DNA from: a virus
Strand: one strand, 5' to 3'
Length of the DNA: 27,583 bases
IMG/VR virus record: IMGVR_UViG_3300032249_000878
Span: 1-27,583 of that record
Below the pieces are notes generated by a model, which worked only from the letters and a program-made list of their open reading frames with translations, had not been told where the DNA came from and made no database searches. The first letter of the stretch is position 1, and the number at the start of each line of letters is the position of its first letter. A program made the position numbers and the translations under genes. Positions 6,154 to 26,625 of this stretch are shown here, in pieces.

Positions 6154-6308
6154 GCCTAAAAAACCTATCACCACTTATTCATGTTCTATCACCGTTAATT
6201 GGTAGAACTCCTATTGATGGATATCCCCCCTTTAAGGGGATATCCATTGATAGGGTTCATAGTTTCCATCCATTGACCATCGATAGGGGCGATTTCCGTT
6301 CATTATGA
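6150..6308 (+). CDS. 52-aa ORF containing the hairpin region
   Basis: An ORF of 52 codons begins by ATGA overlap with the primase-helicase stop and ends by ATGA overlap with the next gene, exactly like its neighbours. The product is Pro/Ile/Leu-rich with no recognised motif. The DNA under it carries two strong hairpins (6183-6208 and 6210-6254), so the segment may be mainly a structured or origin sequence that happens to stay open. Either view is possible; the double overlap favours translation, and the low-complexity, hairpin-dictated peptide argues against a conserved function. Confidence 0.4.
   Translation: MSLKNLSPLIHVLSPLIGRTPIDGYPPFKGISIDRVHSFHPLTIDRGDFRSL
6183..6208 (+). other. Hairpin 1 downstream of primase-helicase
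   Basis: Arms 6183-6191 and 6200-6208 give a 9-bp stem with one U-G pair and an 8-base loop. It lies just upstream of a larger hairpin. There is no T run after it. It is a candidate structured mRNA or origin element. Confidence 0.5.
6210..6254 (+). repeat. Large hairpin 2: 19-bp stem, 7-base loop
   Basis: Arms 6210-6228 and 6236-6254 pair over 19 positions around loop CCTTTAA. Only two positions (6215-6216 against 6248-6249) are not Watson-Crick, and both are G-U pairs in RNA, so the structure is complete as RNA but imperfect as DNA. No U tract follows, so it is not a classic terminator. CATTGATAGG and CATCGATAGG repeats lie at 6245-6254 and 6278-6286. Candidate roles are replication origin, mRNA stability element or translational switch for the HTH gene. 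Confidence 0.65.
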
Positions 6309-9516: not shown

Positions 9517-9659
9517 TTGACACGATTTTGGCGATGTGGAGCGAGGTCTGCTTTTTTCCCTTTGGATACAGTCGGCAAAAGATCCGGTTGCGACACGTCT
9601 TGCACTTGAAGCAATCGCCGCAAATCAATACAGCACCTTTAATAACGGAGGTCGCGTGA
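9513..9659 (+). CDS. 48-aa ORF overlapping the connector gene (doubtful)
   Basis: A GTG at 9513 overlaps the terminase stop (GTGA), and the stop at 9657-9659 overlaps a GTG/ATG pair at 9656/9659 preceded by GGAGG. The chain fits the local packing, but the frame competes with the longer gpW-like frame that starts at 9536. The product is basic with no motif. It is more likely a shadow than a gene, or else the coupler to a short gpW form starting at 9656. Confidence 0.25.
   Translation: MIDTILAMWSEVCFFPFGYSRQKIRLRHVLHLKQSPQINTAPLITEVA
9517..9522 (+). promoter_or_regulatory. TTGACA start-associated motif, site 1
   Basis: TTGACA stands 19 bases before the GTG at 9536 of the gpW-like gene. No Shine-Dalgarno precedes that GTG. 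The spacer closely matches that of the site at 11475 (CG-TTT-G-CGAT pattern). Confidence 0.55.
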
Positions 9660-11480: not shown

Positions 11481-11493
11481 CGGTTTGGCCGAT

Positions 11494-12480: not shown

Positions 12481-13353
12481 ATGGCTAACACACTCGGCAG
12501 CACGTCCAACGGCAAAGCCATTGCGCAACGCGCACTGACCACGCTGGTGGATTCCCTGCCTTTCCTAACCAAAGCGGTAACGGACTTCTCGGATGTCCCG
12601 GCCCGCATGAACGACACCATCACAACCCACCTCGTGACCGTAGGCACTGCTGGTGCTTATAGCGCGACGGCTGGCTACGTTGCCCAGGATCGCACTCAGA
12701 CTGATGCTACCATCAGCTTGAGCAACTTGATCCACAGCACGTATGCGATCACGGACGCTGAGAAATACAGCTCCTCGATCGACCTGATCAACCGCTTTGC
12801 TTCCTCGGCAGCTTATGCCTTGGGCAAGAGCATGGTCGACAGCTTGATGGGCTTGGTCACCACAGCTTACAGCTCCACCCTCTCCGTTTCCGCCGGTGCT
12901 CTTACGTACCGTGGCGTCGTGAGCTTGGGCTATAGCTTGGATAACAACAAAGTTCCGTCGAACGATCGTTATGCGATCGTTTCCCCGGACAACAAAGCCA
13001 GCTTGCTCAACGATTCCAACATCGTTGCCAACGCTCAGATCCAAGGCGAAGCGGTGAAAACCGGTTCGGTTGGATTGGTTAACGGCATTGAGGTGTTCTC
13101 CTACACCGCGCTTCCCTCGGCAGTGTCCAAGGGTTTTGCGGCTCAGAAAGAAGCCCTCATCGTGGCAGCTCGCGTGCCCGAAGCCCTCGACAACTATCCT
13201 GGCAGCCAGGACGTAGTGACTGATCCTGAGAGCGGATTGTCCCTCTCTGTTCGTGAGTGGGTGAACCCCACCCTCGGAACCACCAACCGCAGCTACATCT
13301 TGCTGTTCGGCGTGGGACGCGGATCGACCAGCTCACTAGTTCGCTTGGTCTAA
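12481..13353 (+). CDS. Major capsid protein (HK97 fold, probable)
   Basis: A 290-residue protein following protease/scaffold, with a good ribosome site (AGGAG) and a 24-base gap. The sequence is rich in Ala, Ser, Thr and Val with a P-domain-like middle. The segment DNNKVPSNDRYAIVSPDN is typical of HK97-fold coat proteins, where 'P-x-x-R-x-x-V(L)-x-P' precedes a loading helix (SLLNDSN). The C-terminal part (GIEVFSYTAL, then SLSVREWVNPT) fits the closing strands of the A-domain. It would form the icosahedral shell. A terminator-like hairpin follows the gene, as is common after this highly expressed gene. Confidence 0.82.
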   Translation: MANTLGSTSNGKAIAQRALTTLVDSLPFLTKAVTDFSDVPARMNDTITTHLVTVGTAGAYSATAGYVAQDRTQTDATISLSNLIHSTYAITDAEKYSSSIDLINRFASSAAYALGKSMVDSLMGLVTTAYSSTLSVSAGALTYRGVVSLGYSLDNNKVPSNDRYAIVSPDNKASLLNDSNIVANAQIQGEAVKTGSVGLVNGIEVFSYTALPSAVSKGFAAQKEALIVAARVPEALDNYPGSQDVVTDPESGLSLSVREWVNPTLGTTNRSYILLFGVGRGSTSSLVRLV

Positions 13354-13373: not shown

Positions 13374-13406
13374 GCTCGGACGCATCGGGGGGTGCGTCCG
13401 AGCTTT
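13374..13406 (+). terminator. Terminator-like hairpin after capsid gene
   Basis: Arms 13374-13384 and 13393-13403 form a perfect 11-bp GC-rich stem with an 8-base loop, followed by a short TTT. It lies between the capsid gene and the glycosyltransferase gene, so it probably limits read-through from capsid mRNA. The short T run means termination may be partial. Confidence 0.7.
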
Positions 13407-13419
13407 CCCACTTAAAAAA

Positions 13420-15552
13420 ATGAAAACCCCCCTTGTCTCAATCGCCCTCATCGCCGGCCCCGGCGAGGGGGCGATTTTGCGTAGACTCATCGAGTCGTCC
13501 CGTGGCCTATGGGATCAGGTCGTAGTCGTGCCAGCAGTAGGCGCAAATGATGCGCACAGTGTGCGTCAATGCGCTCAGGAAGCCGCAGGAGAGGTTTTAG
13601 TGTGCGAGGAGTACCACAATAGCCCTGAGTTTAAGGATTGGCCTCATATCGATAATTTCGCAGCCGCTAGGAACAAGGCTTTCAACCTAGCCACGGGTAA
13701 GTATGTGATCTGGGCAGATTGCGACGACATCTTTGAAGCAGGTCAGGCAGCAGCCCATCGGCAAGCGATTATGGATAGGGAGGCGGGCAAGACTGAGTGG
13801 GATATTTTAGTAACCACCTACGACGTGCAGAACTCAGGAATGAGGAACAATCGCAGAGAGCGGATATTTCGCAGGATGAAAGACGGCAACCTCCCAGCCC
13901 ATTGGGAACGACAGATCCACGAACGAGTCACGCCCGCAAAAGACACAAAGATCGCAGTAGCAGAGCACTTAAAAATCCTGCATGCCCCTAATGGGCCAAA
14001 GATATCCAGCGCAGAGCGCAACAAACGAATCATCGCCAGCCGGATCAACGGCATCGGCATGGAGTGGTACTACTTGGCGCAAGAGCACTTTCTAAAGAAC
14101 GAATATCAGCAAGCCATCGGGCCTTGCCTGTTGGCGTTAGAGCATTCGGATCTCGGCCCAGCCGAGCGTTACCAGCTCCACACACAAGCCTCCATGATGC
14201 TTTCCGATCGTGCGAAGCGATTGGAGCATCTGGGCAAAGCCATTACACTTTCTCCGCTCCGCCGTGAGGCGCACGGTTTACTCGCGGCAGATCGAATGGA
14301 TCACGGAGATTTCACATCCGCCTACCATCTTTTGAGAATGGTGGATTCAATGCCGCACACGAGCGATTGGAACCAGGAGAATCGTTGGTACAAACACTTG
14401 CCCCGGCAGTTCATGGCGCAATGCTTGCGGGCAAATAAACAAAACCTAGAGGCCGACGTTTTGGTCAGGGAAGGATTCCGATCAGCCTGGGGAAGAATCA
14501 CCGTACTACACGTTGGCGAGCCAGAGGACTGCCTGCGCTCGCTCGCCCTCTACACAGACACGGCAGACGATCCTAACGCAATTCAGCACATGCTGATAAC
14601 TCAACGCGGAAACAAGCAGGCCGATCGCCATCGGATCGTCCACTCTGCTGATGAAGCGATGGGAGCAGCGGCCGGGGATATCCTGCTCACCGTTACTTCT
14701 AAAGATGCGAAGATGCCCGGACTACGCTGGGATTTGGATCTGATTGAAAACGGAACTATCCCGCCAGGGGCGGATCGGTTGCCCGATCCTGTCGATCGCT
14801 TAAACCGCGTCATCGTTGGCTTAACTACCACGCCGAAACGAATTGGCACAATTTTGCCAACAATAAAAAGTCTGCTCAATCAATCGCGTGCAGCGGATCA
14901 GATCATTCTATCCGTGCCCGAAAAACTGGCGCGAACAGGGGAACGCTTTGGGGATATTCCAAAAGAGATACAAGAGCTGGCTGAAGCTGGTAAATTACAA
15001 ATTCACCGCACGAAGGACTACGGGCCTGCGACCAAGTTTATCGGCCCGCTGGAAGTAGGCGGAAATCCTGACGATAAGATTTGCTGGCTGGATGACGACA
15101 TTCTTTACAGCCCACGACTTTTGCAGACCCTCGCTGAAGAACTACACAACAGACCAAAAACGGCGATTGGAGTCTGCGGATTTTTTATGACGGGATCTAC
15201 CGGCTACGCCATCGCCCCGGATCACGGCGGGAATGCGGAGATTCTGGAAGGATTCGGCGGCGTGATGTGCAGGCGTTCGGATATGCCGAAGGCCGACCTG
15301 TGGCCAGCCGTTGCGGCCAATGACTTTGCTGGGCTGACTCCCTTGGCTCGCGCCCGCTTCCTTGCGGATGATTACATGATCAGCACGGAACTGCGCAAGG
15401 CAGGCACTGCTACCATCGTCTGCAATACTTCAGATCTAAGTCGCACGAATGCCATAAAGATTCGCCAGGAGGGATTGGGGCCAGACGCACTACAAAACAA
15501 CAAAGGAACTGGCGGCAACCTAGCTGCCTACGCACTTCTTAAAAATGCGTGA
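13420..15552 (+). CDS. Two-domain glycosyltransferase with TPR-like middle
   Basis: A 710-residue protein with no structural role evident. Residues 1 to about 200 resemble a family-2 (GT-A) glycosyltransferase: VSIALIAGPGEG at the nucleotide-binding start, and a D100-C-D-D103 acidic motif in YVIWADCDDIF. Residues about 205-300 contain TPR-like helices (GMEWYYLAQEHFLKNEYQQA). A second glycosyltransferase-like domain starts near residue 464 (VIVGLTTTPKRIGTI) with CWLDDDILYS carrying Asp558-Asp560. These motifs would bind a sugar-nucleotide with a metal ion. The donor and acceptor are unknown. Placement between capsid and connector genes suggests it glycosylates virion proteins, or changes host surface glycans. 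The ATG lacks a Shine-Dalgarno; the methyltransferase gene overlaps its end by 8 bases. Confidence 0.8.
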   Translation: MKTPLVSIALIAGPGEGAILRRLIESSRGLWDQVVVVPAVGANDAHSVRQCAQEAAGEVLVCEEYHNSPEFKDWPHIDNFAAARNKAFNLATGKYVIWADCDDIFEAGQAAAHRQAIMDREAGKTEWDILVTTYDVQNSGMRNNRRERIFRRMKDGNLPAHWERQIHERVTPAKDTKIAVAEHLKILHAPNGPKISSAERNKRIIASRINGIGMEWYYLAQEHFLKNEYQQAIGPCLLALEHSDLGPAERYQLHTQASMMLSDRAKRLEHLGKAITLSPLRREAHGLLAADRMDHGDFTSAYHLLRMVDSMPHTSDWNQENRWYKHLPRQFMAQCLRANKQNLEADVLVREGFRSAWGRITVLHVGEPEDCLRSLALYTDTADDPNAIQHMLITQRGNKQADRHRIVHSADEAMGAAAGDILLTVTSKDAKMPGLRWDLDLIENGTIPPGADRLPDPVDRLNRVIVGLTTTPKRIGTILPTIKSLLNQSRAADQIILSVPEKLARTGERFGDIPKEIQELAEAGKLQIHRTKDYGPATKFIGPLEVGGNPDDKICWLDDDILYSPRLLQTLAEELHNRPKTAIGVCGFFMTGSTGYAIAPDHGGNAEILEGFGGVMCRRSDMPKADLWPAVAANDFAGLTPLARARFLADDYMISTELRKAGTATIVCNTSDLSRTNAIKIRQEGLGPDALQNNKGTGGNLAAYALLKNA

Positions 15553-16111
15553 CGAGGAGTGGCTAGATACGCACGTCCAACACTTGCTCGCCAAGTGCGG
15601 GCGCAGGCTTGCCGTCGATATCGGGGCAAACTTTGGAACTTGGTCAAATTTTCTAAAGCCTCTTTTCGATCGGGTGATTGCAGTCGAGCCAGACGATCGC
15701 TGCCCAGAGATTACGGGAACGGAATTTTATCGGATGGTAATTGGCAAAACGACAGGCGTTTGCACGCTATGGCTTTCGCACGAACCGCAACAGAATCACC
15801 TGGGCGAAACGCACCCGCTACACGGCACGGGAGGGCAACCGCTTGAAATTACCCAGCAAACCTTTGAGCAACTATGTGCGGGGCGAGTACCCGACTTTGT
15901 AAAAATAGACGTGGAAGGTGCGGAGGATTCTATTCTGGCGGGGATTGCAAATCCTGCCGCCTACTTAAAAACCTCATTCCTAATCGAAAGCCACGCCAAG
16001 GAAAGCGAGCTGGTTGCCATCCTTTCAAGATGGGGCAGGGAATACATAAAAATCCCGCATCCCGCACCATGCCCCGATCACTGCTGGATCGCTGTGCCTG
16101 CTTTGACATAA
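15545..16111 (+). CDS. FkbM-family methyltransferase
   Basis: A 188-residue SAM-dependent methyltransferase of the FkbM group. The SAM-binding motif I is AVDIGANFG (residues 23-31), followed by VIAVEPD (45-50) as motif II. The family signature FVKIDVEGAE lies at residues 118-127. It is shorter than many FkbM proteins (about 200-280), but all key motifs are present. FkbM-like enzymes often add O-methyl groups to sugars. Overlapping the glycosyltransferase gene by 8 bases, it probably caps or modifies the glycan that enzyme makes. A TTGACA motif sits within its last codons, ahead of the next gene. The enzyme class is secure; the substrate is inferred. Confidence 0.82.
   Translation: MRDEEWLDTHVQHLLAKCGRRLAVDIGANFGTWSNFLKPLFDRVIAVEPDDRCPEITGTEFYRMVIGKTTGVCTLWLSHEPQQNHLGETHPLHGTGGQPLEITQQTFEQLCAGRVPDFVKIDVEGAEDSILAGIANPAAYLKTSFLIESHAKESELVAILSRWGREYIKIPHPAPCPDHCWIAVPALT
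16103..16108 (+). promoter_or_regulatory. TTGACA start-associated motif, site 4
   Basis: TTGACA stands 19 bases before the GTG at 16122, inside the last codons of the methyltransferase gene. A weak AAAGG is the only ribosome-site-like sequence near this GTG. Confidence 0.55.
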
Positions 16112-16121
16112 AAGGTTCAGC

Positions 16122-16430
16122 GTGACCGAGCTGGAACAACTTATGACCAGCGGCCTTTCCGATGCGATTGCCGCCGCACCCGTTACCGCATCTATTGGCG
16201 GGACAGTCGTCACGGGTTTTTATTCGCCTAACGAGCAGACAAGCCAGCTTGGCTACGGTGGAATGGTCGATCCGCAAGGCAGTGAATTTGTCTATGTGAG
16301 CGCAGGCGTGACGGCTCCCAGCCTAATGACCGTCATTACGGTTGCAGGAGTTCGCAAGAGGGTGGCGGGGATCAATAGCGACAGCGGGACGACAAGCCTT
16401 ACGCTCATCACCCCGGAGGACGTGCGATGA
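16122..16430 (+). CDS. Head-tail joining protein (gpFII-like)
   Basis: A 102-residue beta-rich protein in the position of lambda FII or Gifsy-2-type joining proteins. The order is a helical start (LEQLMTSGLSDAIAAAP), then strands (ASIGGTVVTGFYSPNE; EFVYVSAGV; LMTVITVAGVRKRVAGI) and a C-terminal strand. The segment 'G-x-x-V-x-G-x-Y' matches the family. It would form the neck connector where the tail attaches. It starts with GTG 11 bases after the methyltransferase stop and overlaps the next gene by ATGA. Confidence 0.6.
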   Translation: MTELEQLMTSGLSDAIAAAPVTASIGGTVVTGFYSPNEQTSQLGYGGMVDPQGSEFVYVSAGVTAPSLMTVITVAGVRKRVAGINSDSGTTSLTLITPEDVR

Positions 16431-25827: not shown

Positions 25828-26625
25828 GTGGGGTTCTTCGCCACAAGCGGAATCCTTAATCGCAGGGGGGTCTTTGGTGGTGCTCAAGCTTTTAGCCCAT
25901 CCAGCATCGCTGGCCTTTCTTTTTGGCTAGACGCAACAACTGGATTATTTGACGCAACTAGCGGTGGAAATCCAGTTACTACGGATGGAAGCTCTGTCGC
26001 TAGATGGGAAGATCAAAGCGGGAACAGCCGTCACATTACTCAAACAACGGTGGGTGCGCGGCCAATCTTAAAAACAGCAATTCAAAACGGAAAGAACATC
26101 ATTCGTTTTGATGGAACAGATGACATTTTACGCCGATCAGGGGCTTTTGTTCACGCTCAAGGTGCGGCAACCATATTCGTTGTCGTGAGTGCAAATACGG
26201 CAGTTAATAATCGACGACTGATGAACGAGGGAAGGACGGCCAACACAACTTCTCTATATATGCCAATAATTTCTACTAATGCCACCTTGTTTCAAGTATT
26301 ATATCGACTTGATAATAACACAATCCCACTAAATAACGTAAGCTTTGGAACAGCCTTTAATGGAACAGGATTCAAGTTGGTCTGTGCATTAGACAGCGGA
26401 ACAAACTTTGCTGGTTTTATAAATAAGGTAACAACAAACAATCAAAACTATACAAGGGGTACAGTTACGCTAGATACTTTTGCGATTGGTGGTTGGGCAG
26501 CAAATGTCGAAAGAGATTTTTTCCCTGGCGATGTGGCAGAAGTTGTAATTTACAACACGGCACTAGGCACTACCGACAGACAATCAGTAGAAAATTATCT
26601 CTATTCAAAGTGGGGGATAGTCTAA
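25828..26625 (+). CDS. LamG/concanavalin-like lectin fibre protein, 265 aa
   Basis: A 265-residue protein of LamG/concanavalin-A-like type. The segments IAGLSFWLDATTGLFD, VARWEDQSGNSRHITQ, RPILKTAIQNGKNIIRFDG and a final GDVAEVVIYNTALGTTDRQS match the jelly-roll pattern of such domains, which bind sugars. The end 'VENYLYSKWGIV' is typical of this family. It would be the distal receptor-binding protein. It starts with GTG after a GGAGG ribosome site, directly after the fibre stop. The lipoprotein gene follows by TAATG overlap. Confidence 0.72.
   Translation: MGFFATSGILNRRGVFGGAQAFSPSSIAGLSFWLDATTGLFDATSGGNPVTTDGSSVARWEDQSGNSRHITQTTVGARPILKTAIQNGKNIIRFDGTDDILRRSGAFVHAQGAATIFVVVSANTAVNNRRLMNEGRTANTTSLYMPIISTNATLFQVLYRLDNNTIPLNNVSFGTAFNGTGFKLVCALDSGTNFAGFINKVTTNNQNYTRGTVTLDTFAIGGWAANVERDFFPGDVAEVVIYNTALGTTDRQSVENYLYSKWGIV

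Follow-up and report, generated by a model that had tools for sequence, protein, structure and literature searches.

A constant two-domain glycosyltransferase and an exchangeable gene slot behind the head gene of a group of environmental phages: a candidate virion glycosylation cassette

The window analysed here is a complete IMG/VR virus record (IMGVR_UViG_3300032249_000878) of 27,583 bases. Its plus strand carries a late gene run composed of a terminase (7786), a portal (9862), a gene at 11485, the head gene, a glycosyltransferase and methyltransferase pair, and several small genes. The major head protein (12481..13353, plus strand; phrog_283 at 5.8e-23, phrog_267 at 3.8e-20) is the constant left neighbour of a 710-amino-acid glycosyltransferase (13420..15552, plus strand). 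The latter starts 66 bases 3' of the head gene, and its stop overlaps by 8 bases the start of a 188-amino-acid methyltransferase (15545..16111, plus strand), just as the first-pass annotation of this DNA had read the pair. The overlap probably couples the translation of the two genes. A hairpin (13374..13403, plus strand) occupies the gap between head gene and glycosyltransferase, and a TTTGACA motif (16102..16108, plus strand) stands 5' of the first small late gene to the right (16122..16430, plus strand). This gene, without a match in Pfam or PHROG, is a candidate connector by its position and size. The annotation had set the pair between capsid and head-tail joining genes; phrog_283 bears out the capsid side, and the head-tail joining side goes no further than the candidate's position and size. 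The 11485 gene likewise has no family match in Pfam or PHROG, and the small genes 3' of the pair gave no convincing one in either.

The nearest cultured relative of the capsid protein is that of the Verrucomicrobia phage P8625 (27.6% identity), and the portal is nearest to those of P8625 (26.1%) and the Akkermansia phage Moulinsart (27.5%). The terminase is closer to other phages than to these two, with 31.6% identity to a Paenibacillus phage. A host in the Verrucomicrobiota is only hinted at by the likeness to P8625 and Moulinsart. Scans of bacterial genome contigs with the glycosyltransferase and capsid alignments gave 24 and 76 pattern stretches, among which there were no relatives. Near the capsid C-terminus lie conserved Ser/Thr residues that are absent from P8625; one relative, L168, is without the serine before LVR, and this is only a lead.

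Judged by its sequence, the 188-amino-acid protein is a methyltransferase of the FkbM family. It scores 34.1 bits against PF05050 (3.6e-8; cut-off 22.7) and 49.7 bits against the NCBIfam model TIGR01444 (4.9e-13; cut-off 37.7). The top Foldseek match of its model (pLDDT 73.5) is 2py6, an FkbM structure, at 2.6e-6, and its SAM motifs DIGAN, VEP and KIDVEGAED are identical in 8 aligned members.

The larger protein had been described as holding two glycosyltransferase-like domains, with the motifs D100-C-D-D103 and D558-D-D560. Both lie where they had been placed, and DCDD and DDD are invariant across 28 aligned relatives. The N-terminal half is a GT2 domain (PF00535 Glycos_transf_2, 2.6e-10, 40.9 bits versus a cut-off of 23.3); the C-terminal half stays below the family cut-off in Pfam (PF13506, 17.6 bits versus 21.7). 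The annotation had asked for structure predictions of both domains. An AF2 model made from the 28 relatives (mean pLDDT 80.1) gives each half a GT-A fold, with GT-A/GT2 at residues 1-190, TPR-like helices at 196-355, a Rossmann-like segment (no catalytic motif) at 360-454, and a second GT-A domain at 464-710. The two-domain description was thus right about both glycosyltransferase domains and incomplete, as the TPR region and the Rossmann-like segment are also present. With a pTM of 0.52, the arrangement of the domains in the model is, of course, uncertain.

Fold comparison places peptide S-glycosyltransferases first, with SunS and ThuS filling Foldseek ranks 1-6 (1.1e-12 to 3.5e-10). The SunS-like layout, in which a GT2 domain is followed by helical repeats, appears in the AF2 model and in the Foldseek and VIA-align matches. 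VIA-align fits ThuS to model residues 2-367 with a Z of 17.6 over 298 residues, at an rmsd of 16.1 A that apparently reflects a different domain angle in the model. It fits KfiA to the C-terminal domain with a Z of 16.7 and an rmsd of 2.6 over 179 residues. Single domains also match TarP, TarS, RmlT, and chondroitin and heparosan synthases (Foldseek, VIA-align). The fold by itself therefore leaves the acceptor unnamed.

A sequence-profile search found 13 PDB sequences, which include TPR proteins (best 5.6e-9), GmaR (9.6e-8) and heparosan synthase (0.0013). GmaR is the best enzyme match, and it is also matched (3.6e-5) by the enzyme of the second lineage described below. Against the SunS model TIGR04195 that second enzyme scores 18.1 bits, far under the cut-off of 350, and the 710-amino-acid protein has no NCBIfam match. 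A tblastn search of a phage collection (without the Corndog record) with the glycosyltransferase and the methyltransferase found no match at 1e-5. Hydropathy maxima over 19 residues are 1.21 and 1.15, respectively, with no strongly hydrophobic segment, and both enzymes look soluble.

Relatives were gathered from IMG/VR by a scan with the glycosyltransferase, which gave 45 contigs, and by further scans, two of which kept the best 80 of 215 and 505 relatives; another, with the second-lineage head protein as its query, kept the best 80 of 137. Loci from the scans before this last one were merged where the first 300 bases of the glycosyltransferase match were identical. This gave 82 groups and joined near-identical phages (L022 with L023, for instance). 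One contig, 3300042338_000941, was counted twice (L015, L050) because both of its ends fall inside the gene. Genes in these loci were called with our own codon-score caller, and alignment A4 was made without L014, L022 and the second lineage. Among the matches listed, 75 groups form a main lineage (55-97% identity) and 7 a second one (30%).

In the main lineage the place of the glycosyltransferase does not vary. Among the matches listed, it lies directly 3' of the head gene in 73 of the 73 loci that show both. The head gene is visible in 73 of the 75 groups, and the glycosyltransferase lies 60-119 bases past its stop, with no called gene between. To find a two-domain gene behind the head gene in every such locus is more than chance. 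When all 177 loci with a head-protein match are counted, duplicates included, 9 have no glycosyltransferase match, and these end no more than 115 bases from the head gene. PF00535 was searched for in 12 records, and in each of the 12 every match lies within the single long glycosyltransferase frame.

The second lineage has a shorter enzyme, of 550 amino acids and 30% identical, with the GT2 and TPR parts. It was found in 77 of 84 loci among the matches listed (the best 80 of 137 plus earlier ones, with L180/L263, L181/L241 and L182/L242 being the same contigs); in the other 7 the contig ends no more than 470 bases from the head gene. This enzyme aligns to window residues 10-443, which leaves the C-terminal glycosyltransferase domain unmatched. 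Its gene begins some 400 bases beyond the head gene, 3' of a 99-amino-acid gene that is a homologue of the 16122 gene (27% over 96 amino acids, E 9e-8). The second-lineage cassette therefore lies on the other side of that gene.

What follows the glycosyltransferase is, by its gene families, a slot in which finishing genes are exchanged while the core glycosyltransferase is constant. The slot is defined here as the interval between the glycosyltransferase and the 16122 homologue; among the matches listed, 48 main-lineage groups show both. Its genes were named by running Pfam on representatives of the slot families, except that the L082-type group and the 175-amino-acid group of L018, both methyltransferase-like, have no Pfam support and were named by eye. 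A GNT-I-like glycosyltransferase accompanies a Methyltransf_24 gene in 25 of the 48, with a further, doubtful ORF on the reverse strand in two of these; it accompanies a methyltransferase-like gene of no assigned family in 7, and a GT7 gene or GT7-epimerase fusion in 5. FkbM stands alone in 6, and a GT34-like gene is found in 2. Three slots are unique: glycosyltransferase-like, methyltransferase-like and epimerase genes in L018, a GNT-I-like glycosyltransferase with another FkbM in L106, and an array of five ORFs in L171. Gly_transf_sug is also among the slot families. Methyltransferases of a supported family occupy 33 of 48 slots, and none was recognised in 7. The slot of the second lineage comes in two types with variants. 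In one, a 254-amino-acid gene without a Pfam match is joined by a radical SAM gene and two pieces of a TPP enzyme; in the other, a Methyltransf_23 gene stands with a 223-amino-acid gene.

These counts bear on two points of the first-pass annotation. It had held that relatives with the pair in another part of the genome would tell against it; the FkbM gene sits in the slot behind the glycosyltransferase in all 8 two-gene contigs, including the window, and the one FkbM protein found in the 11 longer records (that of L044) is in its slot as well. The methyl cap, on the other hand, does not survive as a fixed part of the system, as FkbM fills just 7 of 49 slots when the window is included.

On either side the slot has a conserved cis signal: on its left, together with the glycosyltransferase, the covarying hairpin that follows the capsid gene, and on its right TTGACA. 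The hairpin had been called terminator-like. The hairpin itself is sound, with 11 perfect pairs; its perfect stem is followed by TTTCCCACTT rather than by a T tract, and a terminator scan omits 13374-13403, so that a classical intrinsic terminator is rejected for the window. Of 81 loci, the window among them, 72 have exactly ATCGGGGGGT at the tip, with variants in L014 and L022; the 7 second-lineage loci among the 81 have another hairpin. Fifteen distinct stems show compensatory changes at 9 of 13 pairs. Covariation is 0.528 versus 0.173 in shuffled alignments, with none of 500 shuffles as high and slid registers failing, although kinship among sequences can beat shuffles without any structure. 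One of five measures is not above the shuffles (further pair types, 13 versus 12.4, with 240 of 500 shuffles). In the second lineage a hairpin with another tip is present in 82 of 82 gaps (19 distinct), and a stem-loop also follows the capsid or putative capsid gene of P8625 and Moulinsart. The 16-base core of the hairpin recurs in 69 IMG/VR stretches, of which 63 are phages already in the sets (by contig name, matched by eye); in the other 6, none of the window's proteins has an encoded relative. Rfam at gathering thresholds found nothing in the window. Other phages have terminators behind their capsid genes, and by analogy with these the hairpin may be read as an attenuation, processing or stability element that would keep capsid mRNA above that of the downstream genes.

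The TTGACA that the annotation saw after the pair is indeed there (16103-16108), and in all 49 listed loci it occurs no more than 30 bases 5' of the 16122 homologue, whatever gene fills the slot. Among hexamers in the regions before genes of these phages it scores highest, with 53 of 377 upstream regions versus 2.6 expected, an enrichment inflated by the repeated counting of homologues (48 of 52 sites fall in six gene families). Mostly it begins 19-28 bases before the start codon. A sigma-70 promoter, which would have a -10 hexamer 16-18 bases downstream, is rejected: across 52 aligned sites there is no TATAAT-like partner, and a scan found no promoter-like site at 16103-16108. In the second lineage, taking distinct upstream regions, TTGACA precedes the 97-amino-acid gene in 27 of 27 and the 11485 homologue in 28 of 34; it precedes the 16122 homologue in 0 of 14 and the gene right of the slot in 0 of 34, where TGACA or TTGAC stands in its place. 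P8625 has it in 3 of 29, Moulinsart in 0 of 18. This distribution makes it a late-gene motif and not a mark of the cassette.

Do the capsid gene and the glycosyltransferase travel as one unit? They do not. Identity to the window breaks on both flanks of the glycosyltransferase (L022 has 98% in the capsid and 67% in the glycosyltransferase; L002 has 73% and 97%), and over 54 loci the pairwise Spearman correlation with the capsid is 0.36 for the GT2 domain, against 0.18 for the C-terminal glycosyltransferase.

In a domain-by-domain comparison (44 loci after dereplication of the 54, 200 bootstraps), the TPR part correlates at 0.66 with the portal, 0.58 with the head gene, 0.77 with the 16875 gene and 0.79 with the 17487 gene. 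The corresponding values are 0.49, 0.39, 0.60 and 0.57 for the GT2 domain, and 0.14, 0.17, 0.23 and 0.14 for the C-terminal glycosyltransferase. The bootstrap interval for TPR minus GT2 excludes zero for the portal, 16875 and 17487, touches it for the head gene, and includes it for 11485, 16122 and 16427; for TPR minus C-terminal glycosyltransferase, zero is excluded in six of seven genes, the exception being 16122. This fits a middle part that would recognise substrate and be adapted to the structural module, with a C-terminal glycosyltransferase that may be exchanged. The Rossmann-like segment resembles the TPR part (0.70, 0.50, 0.75 and 0.76, in the same order), and clade structure may contribute to the correlation.

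The genes, domains, active-site motifs, constant location and exchangeable slot can all be read from the sequence. From them we infer, as the fairly probable reading, a cassette that is expressed late and glycosylates a protein of the virion. A polypeptide is the most natural reading of the putative acceptor of the 710-amino-acid enzyme, and a protein is likelier than host lipopolysaccharide because the GT2 and TPR parts resemble SunS, ThuS and GmaR and because both enzymes look soluble. Here, the GT2 and TPR half would recognise a structural protein of the phage (capsid, tail-tube-like or another late protein) and attach the first sugar. The C-terminal GT-A domain would add a second. The product of the slot gene, in the window a SAM-dependent FkbM methyltransferase, would then O-methylate the end of the glycan. 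With the slot gene swapped among relatives, a single core enzyme would give rise to glycans with different finishes. The benefit might be shielding, adhesion or receptor contact.

The annotation had likewise suggested that the glycan may lie on the virion (capsid or fibres) rather than on host lipopolysaccharide. In favour stand the constant late position, the GT2 and TPR architecture, the sugar genes of the slot, the correlation of the TPR part with structural genes, the scarcity of membrane segments and the published mycobacteriophage precedent; against it stand the negative sequence search of the phage collection, the weak coupling of major capsid protein and glycosyltransferase, the pTM of 0.52 of the model, and the sharing of the TPR correlation by the Rossmann-like segment. 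The same preference meets its strongest competitor in modification of the host surface. In this alternative, the enzymes would remodel lipopolysaccharide or capsule of the host, excluding other phages or changing the surface of a lysogen, as serotype-converting prophages do. Surface-glycan loci usually hold glycosyltransferase, methyltransferase and epimerase genes, and fold matches include teichoic-acid glycosyltransferases (TarP, TarS, RmlT) and capsule synthases (KfiA, heparosan synthase). Further, a tyrosine-integrase domain is present in 11 of 11 longer relatives (31.5-36 kb), although none was found in the window's shorter record. These relatives may therefore be temperate, which leaves room for a lysogenic role and keeps this alternative alive. 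However, the cassette lies inside the structural module, its architecture is typical for polypeptide acceptors, and the glycosyltransferase, the methyltransferase and nearly all slot proteins are without membrane segments. Only 6 of 124 proteins exceed the hydropathy line, three of them doubtful reverse-strand ORFs and three TPP-enzyme pieces. In the scanned representatives of the slot, nothing was recognisable as a flippase or a polyprenyl-linked transferase. We regard modification of the host surface as unlikely, if worth keeping in mind.

The acceptor might also be a surface protein of the host (flagellin, pilin, or S-layer-like), glycosylated during infection so that receptors or motility are masked. 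GmaR, the best enzyme match by profile, acts so in bacteria, as does FlmG. This would, however, leave unexplained the location in the late module and the exchange with structural neighbours, and the bacterial genomes scanned held no relative; it seems quite improbable. Hypermodification of DNA, in which the glycosyltransferase would act on modified bases of the phage genome, is very improbable indeed: phage glycosyltransferases that act on DNA are known (PMC12619734), but the architecture is that of a peptide glycosyltransferase, its company is FkbM and epimerases, and no thymidylate-synthase-family gene, for that route to modified bases, was found in the 12 records searched.

Returning to virion glycosylation, a more tentative step, rather doubtful in our view, is to see in the locus a serotype-like system: a fixed GT2 and TPR primer, its TPR part adapted to its own structural module, feeding unrelated finishing genes that replace one another. 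If so, co-circulating phages would wear chemically different virion glycans. In the papers covered, virion glycosylation is described for mycobacteriophages and is seen as antibody evasion. For environmental phages antibodies are no obvious pressure, and a glycosylation cassette that is both constant and modular would suggest a more general purpose of virion glycans. It would also offer many natural sets of enzymes that build and methyl-cap sugars.

How does the cassette compare with known systems? The gtr-type operons of serotype conversion encode a membrane flippase and membrane glucosyltransferases; here the hydropathy maxima are those of soluble proteins (1.21 and 1.15). P8625 and Moulinsart share the stem-loop after the capsid, and the genes that follow their capsid genes carry no glycosyltransferase or methyltransferase annotation; the word "glycosyl" is absent from the P8625 paper. 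A search of open-licence papers found no description of this cassette, which does not imply that it is unpublished.

The nearest precedent is virion glycosylation in mycobacteriophages, reportedly described by Freeman et al. in 2023 for Che8, Corndog and Myrna. According to two papers, phage-encoded glycosyltransferases act on capsid and tail tube, and cluster O has an O-methyltransferase gene with three glycosyltransferase genes downstream (PMC11600133, PMC12363180). Phage glycosyltransferases and, in cluster O, a glycosyltransferase and methyltransferase neighbourhood are thus shared. The differences are that no sequence match to the window's glycosyltransferase was found in the phage collection (without the Corndog record), and that the passages covered report no exchange slot behind one constant GT2 and TPR enzyme. 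F1 mycobacteriophages encode their glycosyltransferases close to the 3' terminus of the genome (PMC11256854), and lying next to the capsid gene is therefore no diagnostic trait.

SunS and ThuS share with the window enzyme the GT2 domain followed by helical repeats, and are the best structural matches to its residues 2-367. They differ in being only 12-14% identical to it, and the window enzyme adds a Rossmann-like segment and a second glycosyltransferase. GmaR and FlmG likewise combine a glycosyltransferase with TPR, and it is the N-terminal glycosyltransferase domain of GmaR that the profile matches. That domain modifies flagellin, with TPR proposed to recognise it (PMC9638930), and the TPR part of FlmG binds flagellins (PMC7591256). 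Both are, of course, bacterial rather than viral, and FlmG is a GT-B enzyme with its TPR part first. A064R of the chlorovirus PBCV-1 has two glycosyltransferase domains and a methyltransferase and finishes a capsid glycan (PMC9614988). It belongs to a eukaryotic virus, and its methyltransferase is the third domain of a single chain. The likeness is one of function only, and as such A064R serves as a working analogy.

The packaging module appears to have been exchanged as well, because the terminase large subunit of six relatives (loci L013, L018, L020, L021, L025 and L040 on IMG/VR contigs) is only ~29% identical to that of the window, despite capsid and glycosyltransferase modules that are close to the window's. 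A tyrosine-integrase domain is encoded in all 11 of the longer records of relatives (G001-G011, being those of L007, L006, L044, L032, L046, L033, L021, L018, L038, L025 and L015, respectively); none was found in the window record, which is shorter than these. Judged from sequence, the phage group may be temperate.

The motif TTGACA occurs eight times on the + strand of the window and never on the - strand. Copies at 9517, 16103, 16853, 20773 and 24366 (+) lie ahead of several late genes, whose start codons follow the motif by 13-20 bases. Among hexamers upstream of the relatives' genes it is the most enriched, an enrichment inflated by homologous genes counted several times. A -10 partner was sought for the relatives' sites, and none was found. 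Ahead of late genes, TTGACA is possibly an unusual initiation signal. One late gene (25828-26625) has a weak match to the lectin-like Laminin_G_3 (0.0014, below threshold).

The slot of L183 (3438-5655), from the second lineage, holds two TPP-enzyme pieces flanking a radical SAM gene, a set unusual for a phage; from the gene content, these enzymes perhaps produce a capping group, such as a rare sugar. At the slot end of L095, L156 and L166, before the next gene, lies an 86-residue reverse-strand reading frame with a hydrophobic N-terminus, which may be a chance ORF.

A 12-pair perfect hairpin (6217-6247), the window's second long one, separates the primase-like gene from the following gene. 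In the hairpin 3' of the capsid gene (13374-13403), the stem covaries among relatives, while the tip ATCGGGGGGT is nearly invariant. With exceptions, the capsid C-terminus (13312-13350) in phages bearing the glycosyltransferase is GxGxxSSLVR-like and contains Ser/Thr; the capsid of Verrucomicrobia phage P8625, which lacks the cassette, does not end in this way. The second lineage, P8625 and the Akkermansia phage Moulinsart each have a hairpin at the equivalent post-capsid position, each unlike the window's.
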